Positions 20,684-63,250 of a stretch of DNA of 64,000 nucleotides are shown here, piece after piece (the first letter of the stretch is position 1; each line of letters opens with the position of its first letter). Source of the stretch: Strix aluco (lineage: Eukaryota; Chordata; Aves; Strigiformes; Strigidae). A model generated the notes under the pieces. The model was not told where the DNA came from. It did no database searches and saw only the letters and a program-made list of their open reading frames with translations. The translations under genes were made by a program, and so were the position numbers. The DNA lies in assembly GCF_031877795.1 (NCBI RefSeq), contig NC_133970.1, forward strand, positions 43,631,533 to 43,695,532, in the 5' to 3' direction.

Positions 20684-21545
20684 TGAAGTGCTAAGGCTTG
20701 GACAATAAGCCCAAGCCAGAGTTGACCTATAGATGAATCCTGTACATTTTATAACTGATAACCATTGTGCTAATAGGTATTATACTAAGTTATAGCAAAC
20801 CAACTATTCTGATGTAAAAGGTGGGAGTACTGAAGCCTGAGCAACAGGCCCTGAACTGAAACTGCTAACTCTGTATGTAGTCATTAGTGAAATATGCATA
20901 GAAGATGTAGCTTAAACATCATAAAACATGTCTATCTTGAATGTATCCTTATATTTCTTTATGTGTGAGCAAGATAACGGAGCCACGGAAACAGTTGTCT
21001 GGCCTTGTGACCTTGCTCATAAATTAACTAGATAAGCAGGGAAACTCCCTTAGCTTCTCCCTTAAGCCCTGGCCAGGCTCTGGGGGGAACCTAACCTGAG
21101 ATGAAAACCAGATATTTCTGCTTAAAACAAAGGTGCCAGCTATTCTGGCTTGTCGATCTCTGGTATATAAGGCTGGACCCGCTCACAGCGACTTCGGAAG
21201 CCTCACCTACGGGTGGACTCACCACGTAGGATTTCCCACTTGCAGGGAAAGGTTCTCCAAATCCTCGCTGTAACCGGGGCTGCCCAGCGACTGCGGATCT
21301 GGATGATGGTAACGTATGCAAGTGGTGATGGATCTTTCTTAATCACTATTCTCTCTCTCTATCAAGTAGTAATGATTTGATGCATTACCCTGTATTTTCC
21401 TATCTGTTTAAGTGCACTGTTCTGTCTTTTCTTACTGTATGTTTTCTGTATTATTCTGTTATATTATTTAGTTATTTCTAGTAAATACGCCTGCTCTTTT
21501 CACTCTGGTGTCTGAGTTTAATTGATATCCCTGATCAGCAAAACA
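20684..21545 (+). repeat. 5' LTR of C
   Basis: 862 bp, TGAAGTGCTAAGG...GATCAGCAAAACA. TATA box TATATAAGG near 21163. No AATAAA is present near the end; AGTAAA near 21480 could serve. A diverged relative of this LTR lies inside provirus E at about 45120-45580. Confidence 0.93.
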
Positions 21546-24165: not shown

Positions 24166-26412
24166 TTATAACCCACTTGCGGTTCTCAAAATGAACCGAG
24201 AAGCTTTTCTTTCCTTTTTCTTGCAGGTAAACCCCCCCCGGAGAAAGATATTCTGAGTCACGACAGGGGATCCTTATGTGAATTTAAATTTGTATACAGT
24301 GTTGATGTTCATTGTCTTATTAATATTTCTAGGATGTATTGTCTATCATTGCAAAAATTGCTTTGGGTGACTGTTCCCCTCTCCCTTGGTTCTGGGGGAA
24401 GCACCGGCTTCCTAAGTGTTAACCAAGAATGGGAGGAAAACGAATTTGTGGGTTTAAGTCATTCTGTTACCAGTATTATGAGCAAACAACAGACACCAAA
24501 TCAGGGGAAGGGCCCTTTGCTAATGGGGCCTGGGCTTTAAAAAGTCGTTACTGGGCCCATGAAGGCAAGATGGAAATACCAAGACCTAAACCACACATGC
24601 ACTCTGGGCTGGGGGCATGGAAATTCATTTTCCTGCTGCAAAGGCAGACCCCAGCTCCAGCGAGCCAGACCATCTTCAGCTCCACAATTGACAACAACAA
24701 CCAGAATATTTTCCCTTGTGATATGTATGTGTTGGTCTTATAAGTGTCCATGTAAAACATCCTGTAATTGTACTTGTTCATGCAGACAACCACCTTCTTC
24801 CCCCAGTCCCCAAGGACCGGGAGTACATCCATTAGGCCCAGCGTGCGACACATTTTAGTTAAATATGTTTGGTTAAAATATTGTTAATTGACATTGTTAT
24901 TGTCACTGTTACCTTTATTATATGTTTGGTTAGGATGTTGTTAACCATTGTCAGTGTTAATATTGTTTTATTTGTTATTTGTAGTGTTATCGCTCATTTA
25001 CCTTTGTTTAAATCTGGGATAGAAGTTTCTAGGCCCAGATGACACATGCGCTTTAGGATAAAGGGGCGTGGAAAGCGATTTTCCTGCTGCGTATGCTGAC
25101 CCCAACTTCGGCAGAGCAGGGCAACAAACCGCATGGACTACCAGAGCCACAAACACTCAGTGATATATTACCAGAACCACGGAAAAATAATGGATAATAT
25201 GTTAGTAATAATTTCAATTCACTTTATAGCCTTAGCCTTGATAATCATTTTCTTATTTGTTCTTATAATACAACTTTTTTGTCCCTGTGAATGTCAATCA
25301 TGTAAACTGCCATTGTGTTCTTCTACTGATTCCTTGCAACCTTAAAATCGGTTTGTAGAATGTTTTGGTTTTGTAGAGTTAGTTAATTTTGAGCATGACA
25401 TGTTTGTTAGAGATGTTGTTAGCTATATGCTTGTTAACTGAAGATATTTATATTTGTTAAAGATATTGTTAGTTACATGTTTATTAATGGAAAATTTATA
25501 TATCTGTTAAAGATGTTATTAGTTATATGTTAGTCAGAAATATCGTTAGTTGTCATGTTGCACGCTATTTCTGTCCTTTCTTTCTCTCTCTCTTTATATC
25601 TCTATCCTTTGTGCCACCACGAGGACAGCAATGTCAAGCCATGGGGCAGTGTGAGAGACTGTATTGCCTCGACATTGCTGCCACACCACTACCACTACCT
25701 GGCCTCAACATCCTGTCGCCATGAAGGAGTACGCTCTGAAGGAGATGAATTGTCCCCGAAGAAACCACCATATCTGCCTGAAGCCAGAACGACATCATCC
25801 TTGGCAGTGCCTGCCAAGCTGCGCTTGCGCACGAGCCAGGTGGAGAAGAAATCAGGGTGAGGAAGGCGTGCGGAAGCTGAAGACACCACAGGCCGACACC
25901 CCTCCTCCAGCACGACCACTGAGAACACCTGGACATGCGCACCTGGAGGAACACGGAGCGGCACGTATGACAATGAGCTCCGTGGAAATGGGCGGACTCT
26001 TTGGAGAAATTGTGGGGACTTGGACAATAAAAAGACTGCGTACTCCTCTCTCAGGGCTCAGAACTGAGATTTCAGGAGAGACTGAACCAACAGGACATCA
26101 CTGGATTCGTGGTGGTAACTGATTTTGCTGCATCTCTTCTGTTTGCTTGCTTAGGTATTCTGAATTTTCTTTCTTCTTCCCTCTGTCCTATCGCTATTAT
26201 TGCTTGTTACAGGAAATAGAGTTTCCAAGGTTGCATGGTATCTAACCTCGTTTGTGTCTTAAGATCCACTACTGAGATCGTTTAAGAATCCTCCCTGATA
26301 ATGGATCAGGACATGCCTGACAAAACATCATCAACTGATGAACATAAACTAATGTCACTAACCATAGAGATGGTTTGAGAGCCATGATTCACCTATAGGT
26401 CAAAGGACCGAA
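24166..26412 (+). other. 3' region of provirus C: no env recognised, internal repeats, splice-acceptor-like site
   Basis: About 2.2 kb between pol and the 3' LTR. A long pyrimidine tract ending TTCTTGCAG (24225-24226) looks like a 3' splice site. Two related segments (about 24613-24668 and 25062-25118) share a GGAAA...TTTTCCTGCTGC core. AT-rich degenerate tandem units with TTGGTTA or TGTTAAAGATGTT lie at 24857-24966 and 25390-25560. The longest open frame is listed separately. No envelope or dUTPase motif was seen. Confidence 0.55.
25664..26122 (+). CDS. Hypothetical 152-aa frame in the 3' region of C
   Basis: An ATG-initiated frame with His, Thr and Pro-rich composition (for example CHTTTTTWPQHP) and clusters of Arg. 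It has no transmembrane segment, signal peptide or recognisable domain. It lies after the splice-acceptor-like site of the element, so an accessory product is conceivable, but chance is more likely in an element this decayed. Confidence 0.15.
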   Translation: MPRHCCHTTTTTWPQHPVAMKEYALKEMNCPRRNHHICLKPERHHPWQCLPSCACARARWRRNQGEEGVRKLKTPQADTPPPARPLRTPGHAHLEEHGAARMTMSSVEMGGLFGEIVGTWTIKRLRTPLSGLRTEISGETEPTGHHWIRGGN

Positions 26413-27273
26413 TGAAGTGCTAAGGCTTGGACAATAAGCCCAAGCCAGAGTTGACCTATAGATGAATCCTGTACATTTTATAACTGATAACCATTGCGCT
26501 AATAGGTATTATACTAAGTTATAGCAAACCAACTATTCTGATGTAAAAGGTGGGAGTACTGAAGCCTGAGCAACAGGCCCTGAACTGAAACTGCTAACTC
26601 CGTATGTAGTCATTAGTGAAATATGCATAGAAGATGTAGCTTAAACATCATAAAACATGTCTATCTTGAATGTATCCTTATATTTCTTTATGTGTGAGCA
26701 AGATAACAAGGCCACAGAAACAGTTATCTGGCCTTGTGACCTTGCTCATAAATTAACTAGAAAAGCAGGGAAACTCCCTTAGCTTCTCCCTTAAGCCCTG
26801 GCCAGGCTCTGGGGGGAACCTAACGTGAGATGAAAACCAGATATTTCCGCTTAAAACAAAAGGTGCCAGCTATTCTGGCTTACTGATTTTTAGGTATATA
26901 AGGCTGGACCCGCTCACAGCGACTTTGGAAGCCTCACCTACGGGTGGATGCACCGCGTAGGATTTCCCACTTGCAGGGAAAGGTTCTCCAAATCCTCACT
27001 GTAACCGGGGCTGCCCAGCGCCTGCGGGTCTGGATGATGGTAACGTATGCAAGTGGTGATGGATCTTTCTTAATCACTATTCTCTCTCTCAGGTAGTAAT
27101 GATTTGATGCATTACCCTGTATTTTCCTATCTGTTTAAGTGCACTATTCTGTCTTTTCTTACTGTATGTTTTCTGTATTATTCTGTTATATTATTTAGTT
27201 ATTTCTAGTAAAATACGCCTGCTCTTTTCACTCTGGTGTCTGAGTTTAATTGATATCCCTGATCAGCAAAACA
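26413..27273 (+). repeat. 3' LTR of C
   Basis: 861 bp, same ends as the 5' LTR, followed by the CAGGA duplication and then by the interrupted pol of B. Confidence 0.93.
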
Positions 27274-34104: not shown

Positions 34105-34111
34105 CATGTAT

Positions 34112-34515
34112 TGTGGGAGACATCGGCCTGTCAGCCTTGCACAGCCTCTGAATCAACAGCAAGGCTTTGATGAGAAACAGGCCTTGGGAGAAAGATCAGA
34201 AACTGCTGAGCTGTGCCAAGGTGGCAGGGAAAAACAACGGCCAGCTGCAACACTGAGCTGTGGCAAAGTACTGAACTGTGAGAAGTTACCGCCGCGTGAA
34301 CAGCGCGTGAACGAGAGGGTGATTGGTCTGCACAGCGCGTGTTAGAGTGGTCTGATGCTGATAGGAGAAAAGGTTGATAACTGTCTAATTGATGATTTGC
34401 TAATTATGAAGTAAGAGCTTTGGCGAGAGCATAAGTATGTACTATTGGAAAAATAAACGGCTTTGCTTGATATAACTCTCATAGAGTTGTGCAGGTCCGA
34501 TATCCTCCCGCAACA
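34112..34515 (+). repeat. 5' LTR of E
   Basis: 404 bp, TGTGGGAGACATCGG...CCTCCCGCAACA, with AATAAA at 34452-34457. Four substitutions separate it from the 3' LTR by eye. Confidence 0.92.
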
Positions 34516-34517: not shown

Positions 34518-34535
34518 TGGTGACCCCGATGTCCC
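34518..34535 (+). promoter_or_regulatory. Primer-binding site of E, tRNA-Trp type
   Basis: TGGTGACCCCGATGTCCC starts 2 nt after the LTR and matches the tRNA-Trp primer sequence used by avian alpharetroviruses at 14 of 18 positions, including the first 12. Confidence 0.7.
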
Positions 34536-34669
34536 AGGACTGAGCGCAGAAGACGCCGCGGGAGGATCCCCAATTGGAGGTACTGTCTGCAGCGGGGCTG
34601 TGGCAGGGAGGATGGAAAACAGTCAATCGACAGAAAATCACCTGGGAGAGGTGATCGATCGGGGGCAGC

Positions 34670-34728
34670 ATGGGGCAGAACATGTCTGCAGAGGAGATGG
34701 CCACTGTCAGACTCCTGCTGCATATACT
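34670..34728 (+). pseudogene. gag: Start of gag (matrix) of E, cut by A2
   Basis: ATG at 34670 opens MGQNMSAEEMATVRLLLHI, a retroviral matrix N-terminus with Gly at position 2 suited to myristoylation. The frame is cut at 34728 by insertion of A2 and resumes at 41127. Confidence 0.75.
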
Positions 34729-35331
34729 TGTATCGGGTCTGGCTGAGCCAGAATTGGTTTTCCCCTGTAGCAGCCCTCATGGTGCTGTGTTTTATGCTGG
34801 GAGCTGGCAGAGTGTTGATAGCACACTGGTGTTGTGGCTACTGTTGAGTAGTGCTTACACAGCACCAAGGCTCTTTCTGACATTTCCCCCCCACAGTGGG
34901 ACGGGGTGGGCAAGATCTTGGGAGGGGACACAACCAGGACAGCTGACCCGAACTGACCAAAGGGATATTCCATACCATATGACGTCTGCTCAGTATAAAG
35001 CTGGGAGAAAGGAGGAAGGGGGTGGGGTCACCCTTGGTCCTCCGAGGCAACCGCTACGCGTATCAGAGCCCTGCTTCCTGAGAAGGCCCGACATCGCCTG
35101 TTAATGGGAAGTAGAGAATAAATCTGTTTTCTTTTTTTGCTTCCGCGCGCGGACCTTTGCTTCGCTTTGCTTATATTAAAACTGCTGTTGTTTTACCCAC
35201 AAGGGTTGTTTTGTTTTCCTATCTTATTTTCTTTCCCTTCTTTGCCCTATTGAGAAAATAAGGGGAAGGGGGGGGAAGTGATAGAGCGACTTGGTGGGTA
35301 CCTGGCATTTAGCCAAGGTCAAACCACCACA
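34729..35331 (+). repeat. 5' LTR of A2
   Basis: 603 bp, TGTATCGGGTCTGG...CAAACCACCACA. It appears identical to 40519-41121. Confidence 0.96.
34979..35122 (+). promoter_or_regulatory. LTR promoter and poly(A) signal of A2
   Basis: TGACGTC (34979-34985) resembles a CRE/ATF site. TATAAA follows at 34994-34999, placing the start of R near 35020-35030. AATAAA lies at 35117-35122, and a T- and GC-rich stretch follows. The same block is repeated in the 3' LTR. Factor binding is inferred from motif only. Confidence 0.7.
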
Positions 35332-35339
35332 GTCAATTT

Positions 35340-35357
35340 TGGCGCCCAACGTGGGGC
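35340..35357 (+). promoter_or_regulatory. Primer-binding site of A2, tRNA-Lys(1,2)
   Basis: TGGCGCCCAACGTGGGGC is an exact 18-nt match to the Lys(1,2) primer sequence used, for example, by Mason-Pfizer monkey virus. It lies 8 nt after the LTR. Confidence 0.92.
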
Positions 35358-35480
35358 GGGACAACGGCAGTTTTATATTAATTGTGCTATAGCTATAGCA
35401 GTTAGTAAGCGACAAGCTCTTGTGCTGGTCACGGGTTTGTTTATTGCTCTGCTTATCTTTATTTTGCTAAGCTCGGGAAC

Positions 35481-37070
35481 ATGCTGGAAGAAATTGGGAA
35501 CATCATGAGTGGTTTTATTCTGCAAGCTCCCGAAGTACTTATTAATCCTTATGTTAGCTCTTTGATACTGTTCATTAATGCTATTCGCCTATTGTGGGCT
35601 GTGTGGAGCTCGTTAGGTTTTTGGTGTAAGAGAAAGCAAATTTTGGGTGAGAGAATACCAAAATGTGCCCTGAGGCGGCCTGTCCCTGGGTGGCAGGGGG
35701 AGTGGAAGGATTTGGGCAGATTCCTAGGACGGTTATCACCTCCTGTAGCCTGGGATCTTACCCCTGAACAGGCAAGCAACCCCGCAAAACTGACACAACA
35801 CCTGATAGAAGGGTGCCTTGTCTATCCCGATGAAAATCAGCAACTCCTAGCGCTGTACTGGGGCCTGGCCTATGCTTATCGAGCTGCAGTTCAGTGCTCT
35901 CAAAGGACTGTGGTGGAAACGGGAACTCAAACAAAAACAACAACAGCAGAGATTGCCCCAGTAGTAAAAAAGAAACAGTGGACAAGGAGAACAACAGGTC
36001 CATACCCTCGATTAATAAGGGACGAAAAAGAGGAGGAAGAAGCGGGTCCTTCAGCAAAGGGGTCAGAAGAGGGAATAACAGAACTCAAACAGGAGGCAGA
36101 AACTACCCGGTCCCTGACATCATCAGAACTGCGAGATCTGCGGAAAGACTATAGCCGCCAGCCGGGTGAGCGGATTGCTGCCTGGCTGCTTCGATGCTGG
36201 GATAATGGGGCTGATGCTCAGCAGCTGGAAGGTAAGGAAGCCCAACAGCTGGGTTCCCTTGCTAGAGATCGAGGAATTGAAAGGGGAATTGGAAAAGAAA
36301 CAGGAATTTGCAGTCTGTGGAGACGGCTCCTTTCAAGTGTTAAAGCAAGATATCCTTTCAAGGAAGATCTTACGGACAACTCCCCAGGGAAGTGGGCTAC
36401 TGCGGATGAAGGTGTCCAGTACCTGAGAGAACTAGCAGTGCTGGAAGTCATCTATAGTGATCCAGATAATGATGAAGCCCCTAAAAATCCAGAGGATGTC
36501 CTGTGCACACGGGCCATGTGGAGGAAGGTGATTAAAGGTGCGCCATCCTCGTATTCTGCGGGCTTGGCTGCGATGTACTATCCAGAAATGGATATGGGAG
36601 AAGGACTAAGATGTACGCCAACTGTGGAGGCAGTCTCTTCCTGGCTTCAGAACTTTGAAGAGAGTCTTGGAACCTCCTCATCTCTACGGGCGAGTGCCTT
36701 AGATGTCAGGAGCACCCCAAGAAGTCGGTTCTCTTCCACCCCAGTCAGAGGGAAAGGGAAACCTAGGCGCATGACACGTGGCGAACTTTGGTTCTTCCTG
36801 CGTGACCAGGGGGAGGACATGAGGAAGTGGGATGGTCAACCCACCTTCAAATTGGAAGCTCGTGTACATGAATTGCGAGGAAAGACCCCTGCCAAGAAGA
36901 CAACATCCAAGAAGGTTGTTAATGTAGCTGGCGTGAAACCGCAAGAAAGTAATCAGCGATCTCCCAGATACAGGAAGACTGAGATCACCTCCCTTGGCCC
37001 TGATGAAGGAGTTTCCGGCCTGGCACAGCAAGGGTCAGACAGTGAATACTCTGACCAAGAACAGGAATAG
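35481..37070 (+). CDS. gag: Gag polyprotein of A2, intact
   Basis: 529 aa. The ATG at 35481 is the first Met codon after an in-frame TAA at 35406. Residues 1-25 are followed by a hydrophobic stretch (about 26-48, SLILFINAIRLLWAVW) and a basic patch (49-66), giving a membrane-segment-like N-terminus in place of a myristoylation signal. Residues about 135-210 are low-complexity and charged. The capsid-like part begins near LRKDYSRQPGERIAAWLL, the PGE motif shared with ERVs C and D. The C-terminal third is basic, lacks any Cys-His zinc knuckle, and ends acidic (DSEYSDQEQE). Gag would assemble the particle and package RNA. It ends in TAG, from which pol continues in the same frame. Confidence 0.93.
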   Translation: MLEEIGNIMSGFILQAPEVLINPYVSSLILFINAIRLLWAVWSSLGFWCKRKQILGERIPKCALRRPVPGWQGEWKDLGRFLGRLSPPVAWDLTPEQASNPAKLTQHLIEGCLVYPDENQQLLALYWGLAYAYRAAVQCSQRTVVETGTQTKTTTAEIAPVVKKKQWTRRTTGPYPRLIRDEKEEEEAGPSAKGSEEGITELKQEAETTRSLTSSELRDLRKDYSRQPGERIAAWLLRCWDNGADAQQLEGKEAQQLGSLARDRGIERGIGKETGICSLWRRLLSSVKARYPFKEDLTDNSPGKWATADEGVQYLRELAVLEVIYSDPDNDEAPKNPEDVLCTRAMWRKVIKGAPSSYSAGLAAMYYPEMDMGEGLRCTPTVEAVSSWLQNFEESLGTSSSLRASALDVRSTPRSRFSSTPVRGKGKPRRMTRGELWFFLRDQGEDMRKWDGQPTFKLEARVHELRGKTPAKKTTSKKVVNVAGVKPQESNQRSPRYRKTEITSLGPDEGVSGLAQQGSDSEYSDQEQE

Positions 37071-37095
37071 AGGGCCCCTGCCTCCAGCCAGGAGG
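37068..37095 (+). promoter_or_regulatory. Candidate stop-codon readthrough signal at gag-pol junction
   Basis: The gag TAG (37068-37070) is followed by AGGGCCCCTG and then a possible hairpin CCTCC-AGCCA-GGAGG (37081-37095). Pol stays open in the same frame, so suppression of one amber codon would give Gag-Pol. In gammaretroviruses a structured element about 8 nt after UAG does this; here the spacer is 10 nt. Provirus B has the same TAG AGG context and another possible hairpin. Confidence 0.6.
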
Positions 37096-40000
37096 AGGAA
37101 AGGGATGATCGGGTGTATTGGACAGTGTGGATTCGATGGCCTGGCACATCAAATCCACAGAAGTACCAGGCTTTAATCGATACTGGGGCACAGTGTACAT
37201 TAATGCCATCAAGTTATAGAGGGGCAGAACCTATCTGGATCTCAGGAGTGACAGGCGGATGTCAAGAACTGTCAGTACTGGAGGCCGAGGTTAGCTTGAC
37301 CGGCGATAAGTGGGAAAAACATCCCATTGTAACTGGCCCAGAAGCCCCTTGTATCTTGGGCATTGACTACCTCAAGAGGGGGTATTTCAAAGACCCAAAA
37401 GGATACCGATGGGCTTTTGGTGTGGCCAGTGTGAACACAGAGAAGGTCAAACAGTTGTCTAATCTGCCTGGCCTCTCAGGAGATCCTTTTGTTGTAGGAC
37501 TGTTGCGAGTTAAAGAACAACAGGTGCCAATTGCCATGAGGACCGTGCACCGACGGCAGTATCGCACGAACCGAGACTCTCTGGCTCCCATCCAAGAACT
37601 GATCCGTCAACTGGAGACCCAAGGTGTCATCAGTAAGACACATTCGCCTTTTAATAGCCCAATATGGCCAGTGCGAAAGTCTGACGGAGGGTGGAGGTTG
37701 ACAGTAGACTATCGTGGCCTGAACAAAGTGACGCCACCACTGAGTGCTGCTGTACCAGATATGTTAGAGCTCCAGTATGAACTAGAGTCAAAGGCAGCCA
37801 AGTGGTACGCCACAATCGACATCGCCAATGCATTCTTTTCAATTCCTTTGGCAGAAGAGTGCAGGCCACAGTTTGCTTTCACGTGGAGGGGTGTCCAATA
37901 TACCTGGAATCGACTACCCCAGGGGTGGAAGCACAGCCCCACTATTTGTCATGGACTAATTCAAACTGCACTGGAAAAGGGTGATGCCCCTGAACATCTA
38001 CAGTACATCGATGACATCATTGTGTGGGGCAACAAGGCAGAAGAAGTGTTCAAGAAAGGACAAAAAGTAATTGAGATTCTTCTGAGAGCTGGGTTTGCCA
38101 TAAAGAAAAGCAAGGTCAAGGGACCAGCACAGGAGATTCAGTTCTTGGGAATAAAATGGCAAGATGGACGCCGCCATGTGCCTATGGAGGTTGTCAACAA
38201 GATAGCAGCTATGTCTCCACCGACCAACAAGAAGGAAACACAAGCTTTCTTAGGACTTGTGGGATTTTGGAGGATGCACATTCCAGGTTACAGTCAGCTG
38301 GTGAGCCCTCTCTATCAAGTAACCCGAAAGAAGAACAATTTTGAGTGGGGTCTTGAGCAACAACAAGCCTTTGAGCACATCAAACAGGAGATAGCTCGGG
38401 CGGTAGCTCTTGGGCCCGTTCGGACAGGACCAGATGTGCAAAATGTACTTTACACATCAACTGGGGAGCATGGCCTCAAATGGAGCCTCTGGCAGAAGGT
38501 AGCAGTTAAAACTCGGGGTCGACCATTAGGATTTTGGAGCCGGGGATATCGAGGATCAGAAGCCCACTACACTCCAACTGAAAAGGAGATTCTGGCAGCA
38601 TATGAGGGGATTCGAGCCGCTTCCGAAGTTGTTGGTACAGAAGCACAGCTCCTCTTGGCACCGCGATTGCCTGTACTACATTGGATGTTCAAAGGAAACA
38701 TCCCTTCTACACACCATGCAACCAGTGCTACCTGGAGTAAATGGGTAGCGTTAATCACGCAACGAGCTCGACTGGGAAAACCCAACCATCCAGGAATCCT
38801 GGAAGAGATCATGGACTGGCCAGAAGGTAGAGATTTTGGAGCACTGCCTGAGGAGGTGGCTCGTGCCCAAGAAGCACCACCATATAACGAATTACCAGAA
38901 GATGAAAGGCGGTATGCTCTGTTTACTGATGGATCCTGTCGTGTGGTAGGAAACCATCGAAAGTGGAAAGCTGCTGTGTGGAGCCCCACAAGACAAGTCG
39001 TTGAGGCCACTGAAGGAGAGGGCGAGTCAAGTCAGTTTGCAGAAGTAAAAGCGATCCAACTAGCCCTAAAGATTGCTGAACGAGAAAAGTGGCCAGTACT
39101 GTATCTCTACACTGACTCCTGGATGGTGGCTAATGCCCTGTGGGGGTGGCTACAGGAGTGGAAGAAGACCAATTGGCAGCGCAGAGGTAAACCCATCTGG
39201 GCTGCTGCACTGTGGCAGGACATCGCTGCCCGAGTGGAAAACGTGGCTCTAAAGGTACGTCATGTAGATGCCCACGTGCCCAAAAGCCGTGCCACCGAAG
39301 AACATCAAAACAATGAGCAAGTAGACAAGGCTGCTAAAATTGAAGTAGCTCAGCTGGACCTGGACTGGGAGCGCAAGGGTGAGCTATTTGTAGCTCGATG
39401 GGCCCATGAAACATCCGGGCATCTCGGGAGAGATGCAACGTACAGATGGGCTCGTGATCGAGGGGTGGACCTGACCATGGAGGCCATCTCACAGGTCACT
39501 CATGAATGCGAAACATGTGCTGCAATCAAGCGAGCCACACGAGTAAAGTCTCCCTGGAACAGAGGGCGATGGCTGAGTTTTCGATATGGTGAGGCCTGGC
39601 AAATTGACTATATTGGACCATTGCCACGAACACGCCAAGGCAAGCGCTACATACTCACTATGGTGGAAGCAACTACTGGTTGGCTTGAGACGTACCCTGT
39701 AAATCATGCCACTGCCCGAAATACCATCTTAGGTCTTGAAAGGCAAATTTTATGGCGACATGGTACTCCTGAAAGAATCGAATCAGACAATGGAACCCAT
39801 TTTCGAAATAATCTCATAAACTCCTGGGCAAAGAAACACGGCATTGAGTGGGTGTATCACATCCCTTATTACCCACAAGCGTCTGGAAAGATTGAAAGAT
39901 ACAATGGACTGTTGAAGACTATGTTGAGAGCATTGGACAATGGGGGATGGAAACACTGGGATATAAATTTAGCAGAAGCCACTTGGCTAATTAATACCAG

Positions 40001-40250
40001 AGGATCTGTTAACCGTCCTGGTCCTGCCCAAACAAAACCCCTTCATACTGTGGGAGGAGATAAGGTCCCTGTAGTACACACAGGGAAATGGCTGGGGAAG
40101 GCAGTATGGATTGCTCCTCCCTTGGGAAAAGGCAAGCCCACTCGTGGGATTGTTTTTGCTCAGGGACCTGGATGTACTTGGTGGGTAATGCGGGAGAATG
40201 GGGCTACTCAGTGTGTGCCTCAAGGAGATTTAACCTTGGGGGGGAAATAA
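37071..40250 (+). CDS. pol: Pol polyprotein of A2: protease, RT, RNase H, integrase, intact
   Basis: 1059 codons follow the gag amber codon; the part from the GTG at 37113 is 1045 aa. No ATG opens the frame, so it should be made as Gag-Pol. Counting from the GTG: protease DTG at 23-25; RT with Asp236 (TIDIANAF), LPQG 268-271 and YIDD 298-301; RNase H with Asp606 (FTDGSC), Glu644, Asp668 and Asp738; integrase zinc site His765, His770, Cys799, Cys802; catalytic Asp832, Asp892 and Glu928 with 35 residues between the last two. All key residues are present. By sequence style (DYRGLN, SAAVPDMLEL, IANAFFSIP) the RT is class III ERVL-like. The enzyme would process Gag, copy the RNA and insert the DNA. 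Confidence 0.94.
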   Translation, partial: RAPASSQEEERDDRVYWTVWIRWPGTSNPQKYQALIDTGAQCTLMPSSYRGAEPIWISGVTGGCQELSVLEAEVSLTGDKWEKHPIVTGPEAPCILGIDYLKRGYFKDPKGYRWAFGVASVNTEKVKQLSNLPGLSGDPFVVGLLRVKEQQVPIAMRTVHRRQYRTNRDSLAPIQELIRQLETQGVISKTHSPFNSPIWPVRKSDGGWRLTVDYRGLNKVTPPLSAAVPDMLELQYELESKAAKWYATIDIANAFFSIPLAEECRPQFAFTWRGVQYTWNRLPQGWKHSPTICHGLIQTALEKGDAPEHLQYIDDIIVWGNKAEEVFKKGQKVIEILLRAGFAIKKSKVKGPAQEIQFLGIKWQDGRRHVPMEVVNKIAAMSPPTNKKETQAFLGLVGFWRMHIPGYSQLVSPLYQVTRKKNNFEWGLEQQQAFEHIKQEIARAVALGPVRTGPDVQNVLYTSTGEHGLKWSLWQKVAVKTRGRPLGFWSRGYRGSEAHYTPTEKEILAAYEGIRAASEVVGTEAQLLLAPRLPVLHWMFKGNIPSTHHATSATWSKWVALITQRARLGKPNHPGILEEIMDWPEGRDFGALPEEVARAQEAPPYNELPEDERRYALFTDGSCRVVGNHRKWKAAVWSPTRQVVEATEGEGESSQFAEVKAIQLALKIAEREKWPVLYLYTDSWMVANALWGWLQEWKKTNWQRRGKPIWAAALWQDIAARVENVALKVRHVDAHVPKSRATEEHQNNEQVDKAAKIEVAQLDLDWERKGELFVARWAHETSGHLGRDATYRWARDRGVDLTMEAISQVTHECETCAAIKRATRVKSPWNRGRWLSFRYGEAWQIDYIGPLPRTRQGKRYILTMVEATTGWLETYPVNHATARNTILGLERQILWRHGTPERIESDNGTHFRNNLINSWAKKHGIEWVYHIPYYPQASGKIERYNGLLKTMLRALDNGGWKHWDINLAEATWLINTRGSVNRPGPAQTKPLHTVGGDKVPVVHTGKWLGKAVWIAPPLGKGKPTRGIVFAQGPGCTWWVMRENGATQCVPQGDLTLGGK

Positions 40251-40500
40251 TCTGTGAGCTGAGTTGTATGTTGCAGGAAGTGATGGAGGAAGTAGGAACG
40301 ACGAAGAGTGAACCAGATACATGCGATGATGACCCAAACCTAGCCGGTGCTGGAGTCCAACAGTCAAACATACTGCTCCTGTCCTGAACATCCACCTTGA
40401 CAGATGGCAGCCAAGTCACTGAACATCTGGAGGAGTGAAGAAAGCTTACGGAATGAATAAATGAGTGTTATGTGGGACCTGGGCATGACGTAAATGGTAT

Positions 40501-40518
40501 GGAATAAGGGGTGGAGAC
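40501..40518 (+). promoter_or_regulatory. Polypurine tract of A2
   Basis: GGAATAAGGGGTGGAGAC directly precedes the 3' LTR, the position where plus-strand DNA synthesis starts. B has a similar AATAAAGGGGTGGATT and D ends in GGGGTGGAT. The stretch 40251-40500 holds no recognisable gene. Confidence 0.7.
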
Positions 40519-41121
40519 TGTATCGGGTCTGGCTGAGCCAGAATTGGTTTTCCCCTGTAGCAGCCCTCATGGTGCTGTGTTTTATGCTGGGAGCTGGCAG
40601 AGTGTTGATAGCACACTGGTGTTGTGGCTACTGTTGAGTAGTGCTTACACAGCACCAAGGCTCTTTCTGACATTTCCCCCCCACAGTGGGACGGGGTGGG
40701 CAAGATCTTGGGAGGGGACACAACCAGGACAGCTGACCCGAACTGACCAAAGGGATATTCCATACCATATGACGTCTGCTCAGTATAAAGCTGGGAGAAA
40801 GGAGGAAGGGGGTGGGGTCACCCTTGGTCCTCCGAGGCAACCGCTACGCGTATCAGAGCCCTGCTTCCTGAGAAGGCCCGACATCGCCTGTTAATGGGAA
40901 GTAGAGAATAAATCTGTTTTCTTTTTTTGCTTCCGCGCGCGGACCTTTGCTTCGCTTTGCTTATATTAAAACTGCTGTTGTTTTACCCACAAGGGTTGTT
41001 TTGTTTTCCTATCTTATTTTCTTTCCCTTCTTTGCCCTATTGAGAAAATAAGGGGAAGGGGGGGGAAGTGATAGAGCGACTTGGTGGGTACCTGGCATTT
41101 AGCCAAGGTCAAACCACCACA
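40519..41121 (+). repeat. 3' LTR of A2
   Basis: 603 bp, no difference from the 5' LTR seen by eye, followed by the ATACT duplication. Confidence 0.96.
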
Positions 41122-41126
41122 ATACT

Positions 41127-41511
41127 CTCTATGAGAGGGATAACTTATAACGAAACTTCTGTACGAAGGTTACTTAAATGGTGGAGAAACCACAGCCATC
41201 CTGCCGATACCCTCACAGCCTTTGAACCAGCAAAATGGGCTGAAATAGGTGAACAGTTGTGGGAAGCTATTTCCAAGGGGGATCAGCATGCCAGTGAGCT
41301 AGCGACCACTTGGAAGTTGGTTTCAGACACTCTTAAAGCGCGGAGTTGGCGGCGGCGGCCCCGGGCCTCCCAGAGCCCCCCCGCTGCGGAGCGACTGCCT
41401 GCGGCCATCTGGCACTGCACGATCGTCCGTCCCGCCTCCCCCGAACACCAAAAGCGGCAGTTTTTACAGAAGGTGCTGACACTGGGATGCGGAGTCCCTT
41501 GTCCATTCTAA
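41127..41511 (+). pseudogene. gag: gag (matrix) of E, part after A2
   Basis: After the duplicated ATACT the matrix frame resumes: MRGITYNETSVRRLLKWW, then EPAKWAEIGEQLWEAI, the helical pattern of beta-type matrix proteins. The frame continues open through a GC-rich block (about 41335-41500) that reads as Arg/Ala/Pro-rich text and stops at 41509-41511. No capsid or nucleocapsid follows, so E cannot make its own particle. Confidence 0.65.
41335..41500 (+). other. GC-rich block in frame with gag of E, origin unknown
   Basis: GCGGAGTTGGCGGCGGCGG and similar text contrasts sharply with the AT-rich surroundings and resembles CpG-island or 5' UTR sequence. It contains no retroviral motif. A host exon picked up by recombination is possible but unproved. 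Confidence 0.35.
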
Positions 41512-41551
41512 AAGGACTAACTTTAAACCTTTCTGATGGTCAGTACACTAA
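41505..41551 (+). pseudogene. ERVL protease-linker scrap in E
   Basis: ATTCTAAAAGGACTAACTTT and the next 27 bases match 23260-23306 of provirus C with few differences, encoding ILKGLTLNLSDGQY, a segment between protease and RT in ERVL. The sequences on either side do not match. Confidence 0.6.
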
Positions 41552-41562
41552 AGGCCTTGATT

Positions 41563-42114
41563 TTAAAACAAAGAAGGGGGAATTTTGTGGACACACCACA
41601 TAATCAACTAGCAATGGCTTTATATATTCTTAATGGTGTTTCGATGTTTGTAGTATTTGTCATTTGATGTTGTGTGAGTAATAAGTGTGAGGGGCCCCTT
41701 TGTGTGGGTGTGTGACTGTTCTGCGGGTGTGAGACGCAGCCCAGCTGCAGCTGCGGAGTGCGGAGTTCTCTGACCCGCAGTTCCGTTATCCCGCGAGGGA
41801 AGCGGCCGGAGAGGAACGAAGCGCAGGGCATACATGTGTACCAGTGCGGGGGTAGTGCAGGACCAGTGAACATTCCTTAGTACAGAGTGCCCTAGTACCC
41901 ACCCGCTGGGTCACTGGTGCTGCCTGTTTGTTCGGGCTCAGTGTTTTAAGTGTCATAGGTGAAATATCTCCTCTAGCGGGAGGCAGTAACTCTGTGTTAA
42001 TTGTTGTCTTGAATTTAGGTGCGTACTCTGTGGGGAGAGTGCACCCTTGTACCATCTGCCTGAGGGGGATATTGTCAGCTTAATCAGGTAGCATTTTAAG
42101 GTAAAGTAGACGAG
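41563..42114 (+). other. Purine tract followed by LTR- or leader-like segment in E
   Basis: AAAACAAAGAAGGGGGAA (from about 41563) copies the polypurine tract at 46213-46230. TGTGGACACACC follows, with a TATA-like TTTATATATT near 41612, then GC-rich leader-like text up to the ATG at 42115. This order (purine tract, LTR-like start, leader, gag) is that expected at the joint of two tandem proviruses, but no end of an LTR or primer site could be fixed. Confidence 0.35.
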
Positions 42115-42252
42115 ATGGGAAGCGGCTGGAGTGGGGGAATAGTCAAAAAGAGTCCCATAGGCTGTATTTTAAAACGCTGGAAAAAGATAGGGGGACCTCC
42201 AGGTGCAAGTGTGAACAAAAAGACACTAATCAAATATTGCAATCAGTGGTGA
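42115..42252 (+). pseudogene. gag: Second gag start in E, class I (gamma)-like matrix fragment
   Basis: 45 codons with Gly at position 2 (MGSGWSGG), then SPIGCILKRWKKIGG and KKTLIKYCNQW, the pattern of matrix N-termini in class I ERVs. TGA at 42250-42252 is followed at once by betaretroviral dUTPase, so the rest of gag is missing. It is unrelated to the matrix at 34670. Confidence 0.55.
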
Positions 42253-42950
42253 TTTATAATAATTTAGTCGATACTGATCAGGTGTGGACCTGGCAGCCTC
42301 CGAGTCAGTAACATCATTAGATACCACGGTATCCTTGATACCAACAGGAGTATATGGACTGTTGGGAAATGGGAAAAGTGCATTATTACTGGGAAGATCA
42401 TCTACAACCTTACAGGGGTTGTTCGTTTTACCAGGGGTCATAGATGCCGATTATGAAGGGGAAATCAGAATTATGGCCTGGACCCCTGTACCCCCGTGTT
42501 CAGTAACAAAAGGGTCAAAAATTGCTCAGCTTGTTTATCTCACTGCGGCTCCCCCTAATAGTATGCCGCAAAGCCGGGGTGACTCAGGATTTGGATCAGC
42601 AGGTACTCCTCAAATATTTTGGGCTCAGACAGTGACACAAGGTCGACCTCTGGTAAAATGTGCCCTCACTAAAGCAGAAGAATCTGTTGAACTGACAGGC
42701 ATTTTAGATACTGGCGCGGATGTGAATGTAATGTCTGCGAGCAGATTGGCTGTTAGCTTCGGTAACTCAAGCGCTTTATGAGGTTGGTGTTCATGCTGTA
42801 ACGTTTCAAAGCAAAGATCTCATTCATGTAAGGGGCCCAGAAAACCGGGTAGCAAATATTCATCCATTTATATTGGAAACCCCTATTACATCATGGGGTC
42901 GTGACTGTATGGCTCCATGGGGAACTCCAATTGGATCAAATTTGTCTTAA
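42253..42950 (+). pseudogene. pro: Betaretroviral dUTPase-protease of E
   Basis: The frame 42284-42779 shows dUTPase blocks LIPTGVYGLLG, LGRSSTTLQGLFVLPGVID, DADYEGEIRIMAW, GSKIAQLVY and GDSGFGSAG, then the protease active site GILDTGADVNVM. A dUTPase fused in front of protease is the betaretrovirus (ERVK) arrangement. Near 42775 the frame shifts and protease continues with VRGPENRVANIHPFIL and SWGRDCMAPWG to about 42950. dUTPase removes dUTP and protease matures Gag-Pol; here the break disables the fusion. Confidence 0.82.
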
Positions 42951-44297
42951 GGGCCACTGCAGCACAGCCCACCCCTAAACCCACCCTGAGACTAACCTGG
43001 AAAACAGAATCACCTGTGTGGGATGATCACTGGCCCTTGCCAATGGAAAAGTTGTGCCACCTTAATGATTTAGTTCAGGAACAATTAAGTGCGGGATATC
43101 TCGTACCTACCACCAGTCCTTGGAACTCCCTGGTGTTTGTTATTTTAAAGAAAAGTGGTAAAAGGTGATTTTTACATGATCTCCAACACATTAATGATGC
43201 CATGGAGGATATGGGTACGTTACAGGCAGGAATGCCCTCCACAACAATGATTCCCTGAAACTGGCATCTTGTAATAATTGATCTAAAGGATTGATTTTGT
43301 TTTTACCATTCCCTTGCATCCGGATGATGCACCTAAATTTGCCTTTTCTGTTCCCAGTATTAATGTTAGTGAACCTGCAAGACGGTACCACTGGGTTGTT
43401 TTACCATAAGGCATAAAAAATAGTCCCACGATGTGTCAGTGGTTTGTTGCAAAGGCTTTGAGCCCTGTTAGAATGCAGGTCCCCCAGGCTGTTATATATC
43501 ATTATATGGATGACATCCTTAGAGCAGCAGAAACACAGGAGATCATGGAAAAGGCTCTTGCTTTACCCAAAGACTCAGTATCTCAAATGGGGTGACAAAT
43601 AGCACCTGAAAAGGTACAGAGATCATCACCGTGGCAGTACCTGGGGTGGAGAATTTGTGAACGGACCATTGTCCCACAACAGGTTAAACTTAAAACTGAT
43701 GTTAAGACTTTAAATGATTTACAGAAACTGTTGGGAGCCATAAATTGTATACGGCCATTGTTGGGCCTAACTAATGATGATCTGCATAGCTTGTTTGATA
43801 TTTTGCGAGGAGATCCTTCACTGACATCACCCAGAGTACTTACAGAGAAAGCGAAACAAGATTTCCACTGAGTAGCTAACGCCATGTCAGAAAGACAAGC
43901 ATCGCGATGTGTGCCCAGCCATCCGTATCAACTGGTATTATTTAACCCTCCAGGGCAGCCCTATGCTCTGCTGTTTCAGTGGGATGAAACACTTAGTGAC
44001 CCTCTTGTTATTGTTGAATGCATTTTTTTTGTTTTGTTTTGTTTTTTGTTTTGTGACACCAAATGCACAAGACAGTCACTACTCGTCCAGAAGTTTGCCA
44101 AACTGATCATGAAAGGTAGGCAGAGCCTACTATTACTTGCTGGTCAGGAACCTGTGTGTATCATTGTTCCGGTTACTATGCACATGTTACAGTGGCTAAT
44201 ACAAATGTCTTTGAGCAAGCACGGCTTTCACATGCATTTTTTTTCACCAAAATGCCAGGGCAATACAAAACCAGTTTTCTTTATCACGGTGTCAGGC
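42917..44297 (+). pseudogene. pol: Betaretroviral RT and RNase H remnant of E
   Basis: 42917-43168 reads LTWKTESPVWDDHWPLPMEK and LVQEQLSAGYLVPTTSPWN, the fingers of ERVK-type RT. Pieces in other frames follow: HDLQHINDAMEDMG, VIIDLKD then a stop, NSPTMCQWFVAKAL, and HYMDDILRAAE (intact MDD, about 43498). The thumb and connection region (QQVKLKTDVKTLNDLQKLLG) follows. Several stops and frameshifts occur. A T/GT-rich run at 44026-44052 interrupts what should be RNase H. Confidence 0.8.
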
Positions 44298-44990
44298 TAA
44301 AGACATCATTGCCACTTGCCCTGAATACCAGAGGACTCCCTCTCTTCAACAGCTAGTGGTGTCAACCCTCGGGGACTCACCTCCTCAGAATTATGGCAAT
44401 CTGATGTCACTCACTTCGCTGCACTTGGAACGTTAAAATATGTACATGTGTCTGTTGATACCTTTTCTGGAGCAGTGTCTGCATCCTGCCATGGAGTGGG
44501 GAGTCAAGCATTGCCCAGCATTCCCCACTCACCGACCGGACAGGCCATTGTGGAGCGTACGCATGGCACGCTAAAGCATCTATTGCAACAACAAAAAGGG
44601 GGAGATGGAGGGTATCAATCTACACCTCACGAAAGGCTAAATAAGGCATTATATGCCATGAACTTTTTAAACATTTCCCCTGTCTCACAGGTGCCATCAA
44701 TATTACATCACTTCTCGTCGCAGATACCAGATAAACAAGAAGTCCAGGGCAAGGCTCAAGTGTTAGCAAAAAACCTGGAAAGTGGTAACTGGGAAGGACC
44801 ATATCCGTTAATAAACTGGGGAAGAGATTATGCTTGTGTCTCCACAGGTCACGGTCCCCGGTGGTTACCGGCAGAATGTGTGCGACCATACCGGAGGCGT
44901 GAGAGGCAGCTTTTGGTGGACACTCAGGAGCCGGCTGTGGGTGCTGTGGGTGCCCCTGTGCCGACAGTTTGCGGTCTCTTCGACTGATCA
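44298..44990 (+). pseudogene. pol: Betaretroviral integrase remnant of E, catalytic core partly deleted
   Basis: The zinc-site text IIATCPEYQR has its second Cys changed to Tyr. QSDVTHFAALG carries the first catalytic Asp. Between about 44492 and 44500 an internal deletion removes the second Asp. HSPTGQAIVERTHGTLKHLL carries the Glu, and the C-terminal domain ends with GKWEGPYPLI-like and GPRWLPAECVRPYRR text in the frame 44448-44987. It is non-functional. Its class matches the dUTPase-protease-RT upstream. Confidence 0.8.
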
Positions 44991-45119
44991 TTTAAGCAGA
45001 ATGGATGGGTAATGCTTGCTGCTGCAATAGGACAAAATACACTATCTCTGTCCTTAATCACACTACGGTTGCCAACTCTTTTAAGAGAAAATGTTAACAG
45101 CAATTGCAACTCCTTGATG

Positions 45120-45580
45120 AAATATATAGGCTTACTAGTCACTAGTGAAAGATGTAGCTTAGACAAAATGTAGTTATTAATAAGGATGAAATGCTATAAG
45201 AATGTGTGTATTCAACTTCCTTTGTTTAGCCATATTAAGAATTAAGACCTCAAGTGTTTAACCTTATTAGAAACTCCCTTGGTTTTCCCCCTTGAGTGGT
45301 GGCCAGGCTCTGGGTGGAACCCAACAGGAGGATGAAATCAGATGTTTCCGCTCAAAGAAAGTTGCCAGTTATTTTGGCCTGCTGATTTAGATATATGAGG
45401 CTGGACCTGCTTGCAGCGATGTTGGATGCCTCACCTACGGATGGACGCATCGCGTAGGATTTCCGGTTTGCGAGGAAGGGTACTCTAAATTCTCGCTGCA
45501 TCCAGGGTTCCCCAGCAATTGCGGATCTGAATGTTAGTACCCCATTAAGTACGTGTGCTGTTCCGTATTTTCCTTATTTT
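45120..45580 (+). repeat. Partial ERVL-type LTR inside E, related to the LTR of C
   Basis: From GATGTAGCTTAGAC to about TCCGTATTTTCC this follows the C LTR in the same order: GGCCAGGCTCTGGG(T/G)GGAAC, AGGCTGGACC(T/C)GCT, GCCTCACCTACGG, CGTAGGATTTCC and CCAGCAATTGCGGATCTG. The outer ends of the LTR are missing on both sides and it is clearly more diverged than the two C LTRs are from each other. Confidence 0.75.
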
Positions 45581-45600
45581 GTAATACTTAGTCATATGCT

Positions 45601-46090
45601 TTATGGCAGTGATGAGACTGCTTGTGTGGTGAAAACAATGGCAGTGATGAGACTGCTTGAGTGGTGAAGACGTGTGCTGAATCTGATTTTGTGTGCATCG
45701 GTGGTCAGTGTGATGGCAGTGACGAGAGTGTGCCTAACAGATGGCAATGTGGTGTAGATGCAATGCAGCTCAGGTGAATGCATCCACAAAAAGTGGTGCT
45801 GTGATGGAGATCCTGACTGCAAGGATGGAAGTGATGAAGTCAACTGCCCTTCTCGGATTTGTAGACCAGACCAGTTCAGATGTGAAGATGGGAACTGCAT
45901 CCATGGGAGTAGGCAGTGTAATGGTGTGAGAGACTGTCTGGATGGCTCTGATGAAGCAACTTGTAACAGTGCTATTCAGTGCTCTGGACCTGGCAAATTT
46001 AAGTGCAGAAGTGGAGAATGTATAGATGTCAATAAAGTGTGTAACCAGCAGAGAGACTGCAAGGACTGGAGTGATGAGCGCCTCAAGGAG
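45601..46090 (+). pseudogene. VLDLR: Captured, intronless VLDLR fragment: LDL-receptor class A repeats
   Basis: 45764-46090 encodes three consecutive class A repeats: [17 protein letters not shown] with KDGSDEVNC, then [19 protein letters not shown] with LDGSDEATC, then [19 protein letters not shown] with KDWSDE. From memory they match repeats 6, 7 and 8 of the very-low-density lipoprotein receptor almost residue for residue. The repeat junctions, which fall at exon boundaries in the host gene, are joined with no intron, so the source was an mRNA. 45601-45763 holds scrambled pieces of repeats 1 and 2 (GSDETACVVKT, duplicated; [15 protein letters not shown]) out of frame. One Arg is Cys in repeat 6. 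There is no signal peptide, EGF part or membrane anchor; coding is lost after RLKE. In the host the repeats bind ligands such as reelin and lipoproteins. Confidence 0.88.
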
Positions 46091-46230
46091 TTATCTTCTT
46101 TATGTTGTAATTATTTTATGTATATTGTGTTTTCTGAAGTTTGTCTTTGTATACTGTGTTTTTTGAAGTTTGTCTAAACCTTAATTGATAAAGCTTTGCA
46201 GGTGCAGCTGTAAAACAAAGAAGGGGGAGA
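46091..46230 (+). other. 3' tail of E: tandem pair and polypurine tract
   Basis: Two tandem units with TGTGTTTT(C/T)TGAAGTTTGTC lie at about 46118-46176. The polypurine tract AACAAAGAAGGGGGAGA ends at 46230, directly before the 3' LTR. Confidence 0.65.
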
Positions 46231-46634
46231 TGTTGGAGGCATCGGCCTGTCAGCCCTGCACAGCCTCTGAATCAACAGCAAGGCTTTGATGAGAAACAGG
46301 CCTTGGGAGAAAGATCAGAAACTGCTGAGCTGTGCCAAGGTGGCAGGGAAAAACAACGGCCAGCTGCAACACTGAGCTGTGGCAAAGTACTGAACTGTGA
46401 GAAGTTACCGCCGCGTGAACAGCGCGTGAACGAGAGGGTGATTGGTCTGCACAGCGCGTGTTAGAGTGGTCTGATGCTGATAGGAGAAAAGGTTGATAAC
46501 TGTCTAATTGATGATTTGCTAATTATGAAGTAAGAGCTTTGGCGAGAGCATAAGTATGTACTATTGGAAAAATAAACGGCTTTGCTTGTTATAACTCTCA
46601 TAGAGTTGTGCAGGTCCGATATCCTCCCGCAACA
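46231..46634 (+). repeat. 3' LTR of E
   Basis: 404 bp, TGTTGGAGGCATCGG...CCCGCAACA, about 99% identical to the 5' LTR and followed by CATGTAT. Confidence 0.92.
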
Positions 46635-46641
46635 CATGTAT

Positions 46642-56938: not shown

Positions 56939-57265
56939 ATGTCTGTGGCAGGTGCATCCGCCCAGTGAAAACAGAGCTTCCTGGCTGCTGAAACGTGGCA
57001 GCTTCTGGCTGTCTTTGTTTTCAAGGTCTCGCGATAGTTGAGACCTTTGACCAATGGGAGCTGCTATTGACTACAGGTCAGATTCGGTCTGGGTATAAAT
57101 GGAGTCCCCTGGGGGAGCCATTTTGAGCTCGTCCCCTGGAGCTGCACGCTGCAGTCAGAGGACTCTCCCCTTGGGTTCGGGACGCCGCCCAGGGAAACTC
57201 CTCGAGGTGCCTTGGGTCGGGACGCTGCCCTGAGCAGGTCCTCGAGGTTGAGAGCCCTCACTTTC

Positions 57266-57274
57266 CAGGTGAGT
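57266..57274 (+). promoter_or_regulatory. Consensus 5' splice site in the LTR of D
   Basis: CAGGTGAGT, a perfect donor consensus, lies about 140 nt after the expected transcription start, inside R. It is repeated in the 3' LTR (junction after 62894). Confidence 0.55.
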
Positions 57275-57283
57275 GATAGAGTG

Positions 57284-57495
57284 TTTTGGGTTGTTGTTAA
57301 ACCCTAGGTGGTGAAGATTTGTTTACGTTTGGGGTTGCCGTTAAACCCCTGGGGTGTGAGGCTTTGTTTTACGTTTTGGGTTCCTGTTAAACCCCAGGAA
57401 GTGAAGTTTGCGTTTGGGGTTGCCGTTAAACCCCTGGGGAGTGGGGCTTTGTAAAGTATTTCGGGTTATTGTTAAACCCCAGAAAGTTATTCTGT
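57284..57495 (+). repeat. Five tandem hairpin-forming units in the LTR of D
   Basis: Five degenerate units of about 39-46 bp each hold a GGG(G)TT...TTAAACCC(C) inverted repeat, for example GGGGTTGCCGTTAAACCCC. Four of the five are separated by G-rich spacers of similar length. The same array is at about 62915-63121 in the 3' LTR. Confidence 0.85.
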
Positions 57496-57620
57496 TCTCC
57501 TCTTGCGGACATTCGGATCTGTAATCTACGGAGAGCTGACTGGTGGTTTTATTAAAAAATAAATTTATTTATTTTTTTAAATTGGTGGTGGGTCACTCAT
57601 TTGGAAGCCTCCATAACAAT

Positions 57621-62569: not shown

Positions 62570-63245
62570 TGTGGCAGGTGCATCCGCCCAAGGAAAGCAG
62601 AGCTTCCTGGCTGCTGAAACGTGGCAGCTTCTGGCTGTCTTTGTTTTCAAGGTCTCGCGGTAGTTGAGACCTTTGACCAATGGGAACTGCTATTGACTAC
62701 AGGTCAGATTCGGTCTGGGTATAAACGGAGTCCCCTGGGGGAGCCATTTTGAGCTCGTCCCCTGGAGCTGCACGCTGCAGTCAGAGGACTCTCCCCTTGG
62801 GTTCGGGACGCCGCCCAGGGAAACTCCTCGAGGTGCCTTGGGTCGGGACGCTGCCCTGAGCAGGTCCTCGAGGTTGAGAGCCCTCACTTTCCAGGTGAGT
62901 GATAGAGTGTTTTGGGTTGTTGTTAAACCCTAGGTGGTGAAGATTTGTTTACGTTTGGGGTTGCCGTTAAACCCCTGGGGTGTGAGGCTTTGTTTTACGT
63001 TTTGGGTTCCCATTAAACCCCAGGAAGTGAAGTTTGCATTTGGGGTTGCCGTTAAACCCCTGGGGAGTGGGGCTTTGTAAAGTATTTCGGGTTATTGTTA
63101 AACCCCAGAAAGTTATTCTGTTCTCCTCTTGCGGACATTCGGATCTGTAATCTACGGAGAGCTGACTGGTGGTTTTATTAAAAAATAAATTTATTTATTT
63201 TTTTTAAATTGGTGGTGGGTCACTCATTTGGAAGCCTCCGTAACA
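62570..63245 (+). repeat. 3' LTR of D
   Basis: 676 bp, TGTGGCAGGTGCATCC...CCTCCGTAACA, about 98.4% identical to the 5' LTR by eye, including the hairpin array and splice donor. Confidence 0.93.
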
Positions 63246-63250
63246 ATGTT

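Follow-up and report, generated by a model that had tools for sequence, protein, structure and literature searches.

The window, i.e. the whole stretch of DNA analysed here, covers 64,000 nt of the tawny owl genome (Strix aluco, assembly GCF_031877795.1, contig NC_133970.1, hereafter C40, at C40:43631533-43695532). It contains an LTR element, referred to as the outer element, which is split by a nested younger one and carries, downstream of its integrase, a segment (45603-46089) that corresponds, by alignment to the parent gene, to intron-less exon sequence of the host VLDLR. The features of this locus are listed below, with the strand in parentheses where one applies.

34105..34111: target-site duplication CATGTAT, left, 7 nt
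34112..34515 (+): 5' LTR of the outer element (TG...CA), by comparison with the 3' LTR
34520..34728 (+): 5' leader of the outer element, split by the nested element
34729..41121 (+): nested younger retroviral element, outside the capture, with ATACT on both sides
41122..42270 (+): degraded gag region of the outer element, labelled by position
42278..42778 (+): dUTPase and start of the protease (dUTPase E 3.1e-17; RVP E 0.025)
43287..43868 (+): reverse transcriptase pieces and thumb (RVT_1 E 1.3e-8, 43410-43592; RVT_thumb E 3.8e-23, 43596-43868)
44325..44984 (+): pieces of the integrase core and DNA-binding domain (IN_DBD_C E 3.3e-7; rve E 6e-5)
44991..45269 (+): u1, a stretch that matched no family
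45270..45533 (+): internal part of a different LTR-type repeat, 264 nt, 78% to 26770-27036 and 21041-21305
45534..45602 (+): stretch u2, directly 5' of VLDLR
45603..45659 (+): end of the VLDLR LA1 exon, in two copies (45603-45626 and 45638-45659), by alignment
45660 to about 45755-45759 (+): first part of the VLDLR LA2 exon, with an LA1-like piece inserted, by alignment
45756-45848 (+): VLDLR LA6 (end of exon LA4-6), 97% to the parent gene
45849 to about 45971-45974 (+): VLDLR exon LA7, complete, 95% to the parent gene
about 45972-46089 (+): VLDLR exon LA8 minus its last 5 nt, 95% to the parent gene
45758..46177 (+): open frame of 139 aa, LA6-LA8 and a hydrophobic tail from element sequence
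46090..46216 (+): stretch u3, from VLDLR to the polypurine tract
46217..46230 (+): polypurine tract
46231..46634 (+): 3' LTR of the outer element
46635..46641: target-site duplication CATGTAT, right

The VLDLR segment and its carrier

In the window, LA6, LA7 and LA8 are contiguous and joined exactly at the exon ends, the intervening introns being cleanly absent, and the LA2 piece stops at the LA2/LA6 deletion joint. The parent VLDLR gene, with its introns, lies in the same genome at C41:29650001-29690000 (loci L009-L012), where identity over the three main exon matches is 95-97%, introns separate these matches and the exon ends concerned are canonical GT/AG. A profile search of the segment returned the Pfam family Ldl_recept_a in three stretches (E 2.8e-37), and VLDLR (8ufb, E 1.4e-88) was the best PDB match below LRP2 chains. 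The parent gene region contains none of u1, the LTR-type fragment, u2 and u3. A sequence-only reading of this DNA had claimed that VLDLR repeats LA6-8, preceded by pieces of LA1-2, had been captured from a spliced mRNA inside a retroviral element. The modules it named are confirmed, with coordinates right within a few bases; the spliced source is borne out by the exact exon joints found upon comparison with the intron-bearing parent, as that reading had suggested checking; and capture inside the element is supported by the position of the segment between pol and the polypurine tract, within the LTRs.

The two LTRs of the outer element differ at 4 of 404 aligned positions (K2P 0.010). From the end of the integrase to the 3' LTR, 1.24 kb are taken up successively by u1, the LTR-type fragment, u2, VLDLR and u3. 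Pfam revealed no env domain in the pieces scanned, nor any convincing match in the gag side (41122..42270) and, as read from the sequence, the VLDLR insert occupies the former env position. The LTR-type fragment (45270-45533), which the sequence-only reading labelled ERVL, resembles parts of a repeat pair about 865 nt long elsewhere in the window and is also present in copies of the element. Regarding classification as betaretrovirus-like (class II, ERVK), the outer element has a dUTPase in pro together with a class II pol, and 6 of 111 integrase matches were named ERVK Pol, all six from birds; the 6-bp target duplication expected of such elements is present as GTCAAC in L017 and L018, which are duplicates of one insertion, the window copy having 7 nt. 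Like avian elements of the ERVK type, the carrier thus combines dUTPase, reverse transcriptase and integrase with, in L017/L018, the 6-bp duplication; unlike them, it has no env that could be found and carries VLDLR as well as a fragment of another LTR-type repeat.

The nested element (34729-41121) was inserted recently, since its 603-nt LTRs are identical and it has two long open frames, namely one of 1059 aa with protease, reverse transcriptase, RNase H and integrase matches (Pfam) and one of 553 aa with no Pfam match. It is related to another element of the window, at 8847-15241, with 97.4% identity over 6.4 kb. Two LTR-pair-like direct-repeat pairs were also observed, at 20683-21545 / 26412-27273 (96.4%) and at 56944-57620 / 62570-63247 (98.4%), the latter with 82-nt units at 85-nt spacing within and beside it.

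Copies in the tawny owl genome and in other owls

Two classes of VLDLR segment occur in the genome. Type A, to which the window copy belongs, consists of the LA1 end, part of LA2, LA6, LA7 and LA8, and type B of the LA1 end, the whole of LA2 and most of LA3. In a search of 1.41 Gb in 202 contigs, the 490-nt segment of the window gave at least 47 matches (best 40 of 91 candidates scored) and a type B query at least 40 places (best 40 of 84 candidates scored). Besides the parent gene, at least 66 distinct loci carry a VLDLR segment, at least 42 of them on C40 and at least 4 on C41, a count that leaves aside 44 unscored type B candidates. C40 makes up 3.5% of the genome yet accounts for 31 of the 40 type B places that were scored. 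With 66 loci, a chance origin is excluded.

Where the 3' flank was readable (24 entries, 23 loci), 19 flank groups were distinguished. LTR pairs with target duplications were established for the window element and for L017/L018. Some loci are segmental duplicates, namely L017/L018 and L029/L030, which are 99.7-99.9% identical over more than 8 kb. The claim that the segment had moved with its provirus is supported by the LTRs and the CATGTAT duplication of the window copy and by the 66 loci. Three features of host-gene transduction are found together: an intron-less coding sequence in an LTR element, its multiplication at independent sites and the loss of env. LTR divergence in 11 pairs ranges from 0.010 (window) to 0.057 (L020, L031), the ends being rough for L027, L031 and L032. 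With a neutral rate taken as near 2e-9 per site per year, this would place the insertions roughly 2.5 to 14 million years ago.

Of note, L024 (C40:2945385-2953841) and L025 (C41:94101599-94110056) represent one VLDLR-bearing insertion, with 4.2 kb shared at 99.6%. If the two contigs are W and Z, this identity points to a recent exchange or to a young Z-W stratum. A W gametolog of VLDLR was considered as a source of the copies and rejected, as introns are absent and the segments lie inside LTR elements at many different flanks. In L031 (~5020-5560) and L034 (~100-330), the LA1 exon end has apparently grown into a minisatellite with units of ~41 nt.

Protein searches led to annotated proteins of other owls, all in the Strigidae. 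In Strix occidentalis caurina, P0001 matches 77% of the 139-aa frame of the window at 98% (protein search); its residues 31-167 correspond to window positions 45668-46078, across the LA2/LA6 joint, at 95.6%, while 22 residues from its start correspond to 44906-44971, at the end of the integrase, a match that tblastn did not return. Two proteins come from Bubo scandiacus: the first 11 residues of P0045 are encoded at 44658-44690 (integrase), u2 and then VLDLR following, while P0049 has a few element residues and then VLDLR. In P0050 of Otus sunia, the LTR-type fragment is followed by u2 and then by VLDLR. Element-VLDLR joints are also present in P0005, P0006 and P0053 (ENA contigs). These observations come from 13 of 79 matches viewed, in a database restricted to proteins of limited length.

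Deletion classes, order of assembly and origin

Among 63 fetched loci (L054 being excluded as the same locus as L048, and three scored type B places lying outside the fetched set), the intron-less joint LA1|LA2 was seen in 60, LA2|LA3 in 39, LA6|LA7 in 19 and LA7|LA8 in 21, and LA3|LA4 was crossed by none. LA4-LA5 was found in the genome search in the parent gene only, and no complete LA1-LA8 copy was found. Wherever the LA1 end could be aligned, the LA1 part begins at g17548-17549 in both classes; the unfiltered 5' ends, in which cross-matching among LA modules is a confounder, were set aside. The surroundings agree as well, with u2, the LTR-type fragment, the final part of u3 and the LTR found in both classes. 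The LA2/LA6 joint of type A is identical in L026 and L029 and one base off in L023. Because the two classes share their start and their flanks, the simplest reading of these sequences is a single capture, spanning at least the LA1 end to LA8, followed by two deletions. The rival view, whereby one element made two separate captures (LA1-LA3 and LA1-LA8), possibly with recombination, would account for the LA3|LA4 joint being crossed by no examined copy and for LA4-LA5 being confined to the parent gene. The common LA1 base and the common surroundings speak against it, and it appears rather unlikely.

The copies further differ in what accompanies VLDLR. L026-L032 consist of a gag-side fragment and VLDLR, with no pol match in the fetched stretch, and L028-L030 additionally carry the 264-nt LTR-type fragment; for L033 and L034, the fetched DNA reaches no more than some 400 bases upstream. 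The pol group comprises the window copy and L013-L025 (14 copies), of which 13 have a pol match in the fetched DNA and L014 has none. At positions 3 and 26 of LA6-8, all 14 pol-group copies have a derived base in common where L026-L030 keep the host base. In a FastTree phylogeny, L029/L030, L028, L027 and L026 branch outside the clade of 14, with modest backbone support at several nodes (0.65, 0.68, 0.77, 0.77 and one of 0.96; 0.77 for the clade of 14) and with L029/L030 covering just 200 of the 335 nt of the alignment. The shared derived bases and the tree indicate that VLDLR was already carried by pol-less forms when the env-less form with pol arose or acquired it. In L026 and L029, a direct repeat of element letters (u2/u3) flanks VLDLR, roughly 35 nt long in L029 and with a shorter upstream copy in L026. 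This fits what would be expected if the reverse transcriptase had left the viral RNA and rejoined it slightly upstream.

A template-switch capture of VLDLR mRNA, followed by two deletions, by recombination into a pol-bearing env-less element and by amplification, is the likely origin of these elements. A spliced VLDLR mRNA would have been copied into the RNA of a betaretrovirus-like element during reverse transcription, the anatomy of the copies suggesting template switching between co-packaged RNAs as the route. Two different internal deletions would then have reduced the captured piece, which would have spanned at least the LA1 end to LA8, to type A (LA1-LA2-LA6-LA7-LA8) and to type B (LA1-LA2-LA3). 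The earliest-branching type A copies would be the short elements that have a gag-side fragment but lack pol; part of a different LTR-type repeat would later have been gained upstream of VLDLR, and recombination, presumably also between co-packaged RNAs, would have brought the segment into an env-less element equipped with dUTPase, reverse transcriptase and integrase. This pol-bearing form would then have amplified, mostly on C40, with the segment moving in the former env position.

Two other origins are set against this capture. A processed VLDLR pseudogene, put into an old provirus by non-LTR machinery, would equally be intron-less, but neither a poly(A) tail nor a private target duplication was found at the segment, both of its ends fall within coding exons, and the same element stretches flank it in copies of 19 different 3' flank groups, a multi-copy pattern that refutes this origin and makes it highly improbable. 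An assembly artefact or a contamination is rejected as having a negligible probability, considering the 66 loci, the 19 flank groups among 24 readable entries and the recurrence of the joints in proteins annotated for Strix, Bubo and Otus. Retained introns, a poly(A) tail together with an independent target duplication, or an artefact had been named in the sequence-only reading as findings that would count against it; no intron is kept, the segment has neither such a tail nor such a duplication, and the 66 loci and the proteins of three owl species exclude an artefact.

Coding potential, related captures and significance

The type B segment was most likely a passenger. For type A, the main alternative to a passenger is a small LA6-8 protein made during the active time of the element, whose frame would have been kept as useful, be it membrane-bound or secreted, as a decoy, in receptor interference or as a surface substitute for env. 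The LA6-8 frame is indeed unbroken to the end of LA8 in 11 of 19 type A copies, but it is broken between LA6 and LA8 in the other 8. The VLDLR frame itself is not continuous, being lost at the LA2/LA6 joint, and the VLDLR signal-peptide exon had no match in the 63 fetched loci; the first half of the LA1 exon gave short cross-matches only, none above 85% except one of 28 nt. Hydrophobic stretches, judged by hydropathy, do lie beside the frame: in most type A copies, LA2 read in the shifted frame before LA6-8 encodes a basic-plus-hydrophobic stretch (15 residues, with close variants), and pol-group copies whose frame extends past LA8 have a hydrophobic tail there, truncated in L017/L018. In composition, the frame resembles that of a membrane protein, and its product could possibly be membrane-held through the frame-shifted LA2 and the element-derived tail. 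No AUG precedes the upstream stretch in that frame in the copies listed, so that an LA6-8 protein would have to begin at a non-AUG codon or rely on splicing further upstream, and in the window copy the upstream hydrophobic stretch is gone.

The distribution of silent (S) and non-silent (N) changes bears on the same question. In the 19 type A copies, changes shared by at least four copies are 8 S : 7 N, those shared by two or three 11 S : 13 N : 1 stop, and private ones 8 S : 40 N : 4 stop. With duplicates collapsed (L014, L018, L025, L030 and L050, leaving 15 type A and 38 type B copies), type A has 15 S : 10 N : 1 stop among changes shared by at least two copies and 12 S : 50 N : 4 stop among private ones (Fisher p 0.0006, with thresholds picked after the data were seen and copies that are non-independent). 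The binomial p for the shared silent changes lies between 0.0002 (expected silent share 0.25) and 0.009 (0.337, transitions only). This shared silent excess speaks for a protein role, but up to three of the shared sites could be host-gene changes and type B, with 9 S : 29 N : 1 stop among shared and 22 S : 48 N : 3 stop among private changes (Fisher p 0.51), lacks such an excess. Although 31 of its 39 frames are free of stop or indel, type B looks like a neutrally evolving passenger. Type A LA6-8 shows signs of constraint that are not explained away, based on few changes and thresholds chosen afterwards. On balance, a useful protein as the reason for keeping the type A frame is unlikely, if not to be dismissed lightly; the narrower proposal that the type A element made a small LA6-8 protein in the place of env, for instance one interfering with receptors or binding VLDLR ligands, and that selection kept it, is a little more doubtful still. 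The decoy or receptor idea of the sequence-only reading has fared unevenly, losing by the missing signal exon, the lost frame and the neutrality of type B, and gaining by the silent excess and the hydrophobic stretches of type A.

Tva, the receptor of subgroup A avian leukosis virus, is a host gene product with a single LA module. If type A makes a protein, it would likewise be small, with LA modules next to a hydrophobic stretch; unlike in Tva, the modules are borne by an element. In oncogene-transducing retroviruses, a spliced host mRNA lies in a defective, helper-dependent genome in which part of gag is retained. L026-L032 recall this arrangement in combining a spliced host mRNA with part of gag in a defective genome, and depart from it in that no oncogene is involved, the elements are in the germline and the segment is later found in a pol-bearing form.

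The closest parallels are crocodilian. In CrocERV31, nectin3 was captured in place of env (PMC4299795). As here, a host mRNA replaces env and occurs in several copies, with spread by retrotransposition inferred in both cases; an ORF spanning the reconstructed nectin3 and purifying selection are reported for CrocERV31 in the available text of that article, whereas the owl element holds VLDLR, as LA fragments alone, with a type A frame broken at one joint, two classes and pol-less forms. In CrocERV29, the mRNA of KIT-ligand was similarly captured downstream of pol and then multiplied, without the env loss that characterises the VLDLR element (PMC4299795). As far as the accessible text of that source goes, the VLDLR element is of the same kind as these captures and new in the gene concerned, in its fragments and in the assembly steps that are kept. 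No description of VLDLR capture by an avian retrovirus was found in a literature search whose scope excluded most subscription papers and all preprints, and a term search of the available text of PMC6523648 and PMC5629816 gave no mention of VLDLR or lipoprotein.

The distribution of the copies may also matter for sex-biased expression. C40 may be the female W, as judged from its copy load, from the ERV-rich nature of avian W chromosomes (as stated in the available text of PMC8310711) and from the location on C41 of VLDLR, a gene on the Z in chicken (PMC13069001). In the accessible part of the latter study, on 32 juvenile tawny owls, VLDLR and CCDC171 were the only two of 272 Z-mapped sex-differing genes with higher expression in females, the reference genome came from a male, and an exon-usage test between sexes flagged SLC12A only (PMC13069001). 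Transcripts of W copies would map to VLDLR, which would then look female-biased. Mis-mapping to a few exons should, on the other hand, have flagged VLDLR in the exon-usage test, so that this explanation survives only if the gene model corresponds to a short copy or if the power was low. From what the available text of that study reports, an origin of the published female-higher VLDLR signal in W copies is a real but minority possibility. Wherever owl reads are mapped to VLDLR without these copies being taken into account, sex differences are open to misreading.

Beyond this practical point, the capture of host genes by retroviruses is usually visible only as an end product. A single owl genome keeps apparent stages of the process, namely pol-less forms with a gag-side fragment and VLDLR, forms with the LTR-type fragment added, a pol-bearing env-less form and two deletion classes, and their coexistence makes the order of assembly readable. 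Types A and B, moreover, offer a built-in comparison, with signs of protein constraint in the former and none in the latter.
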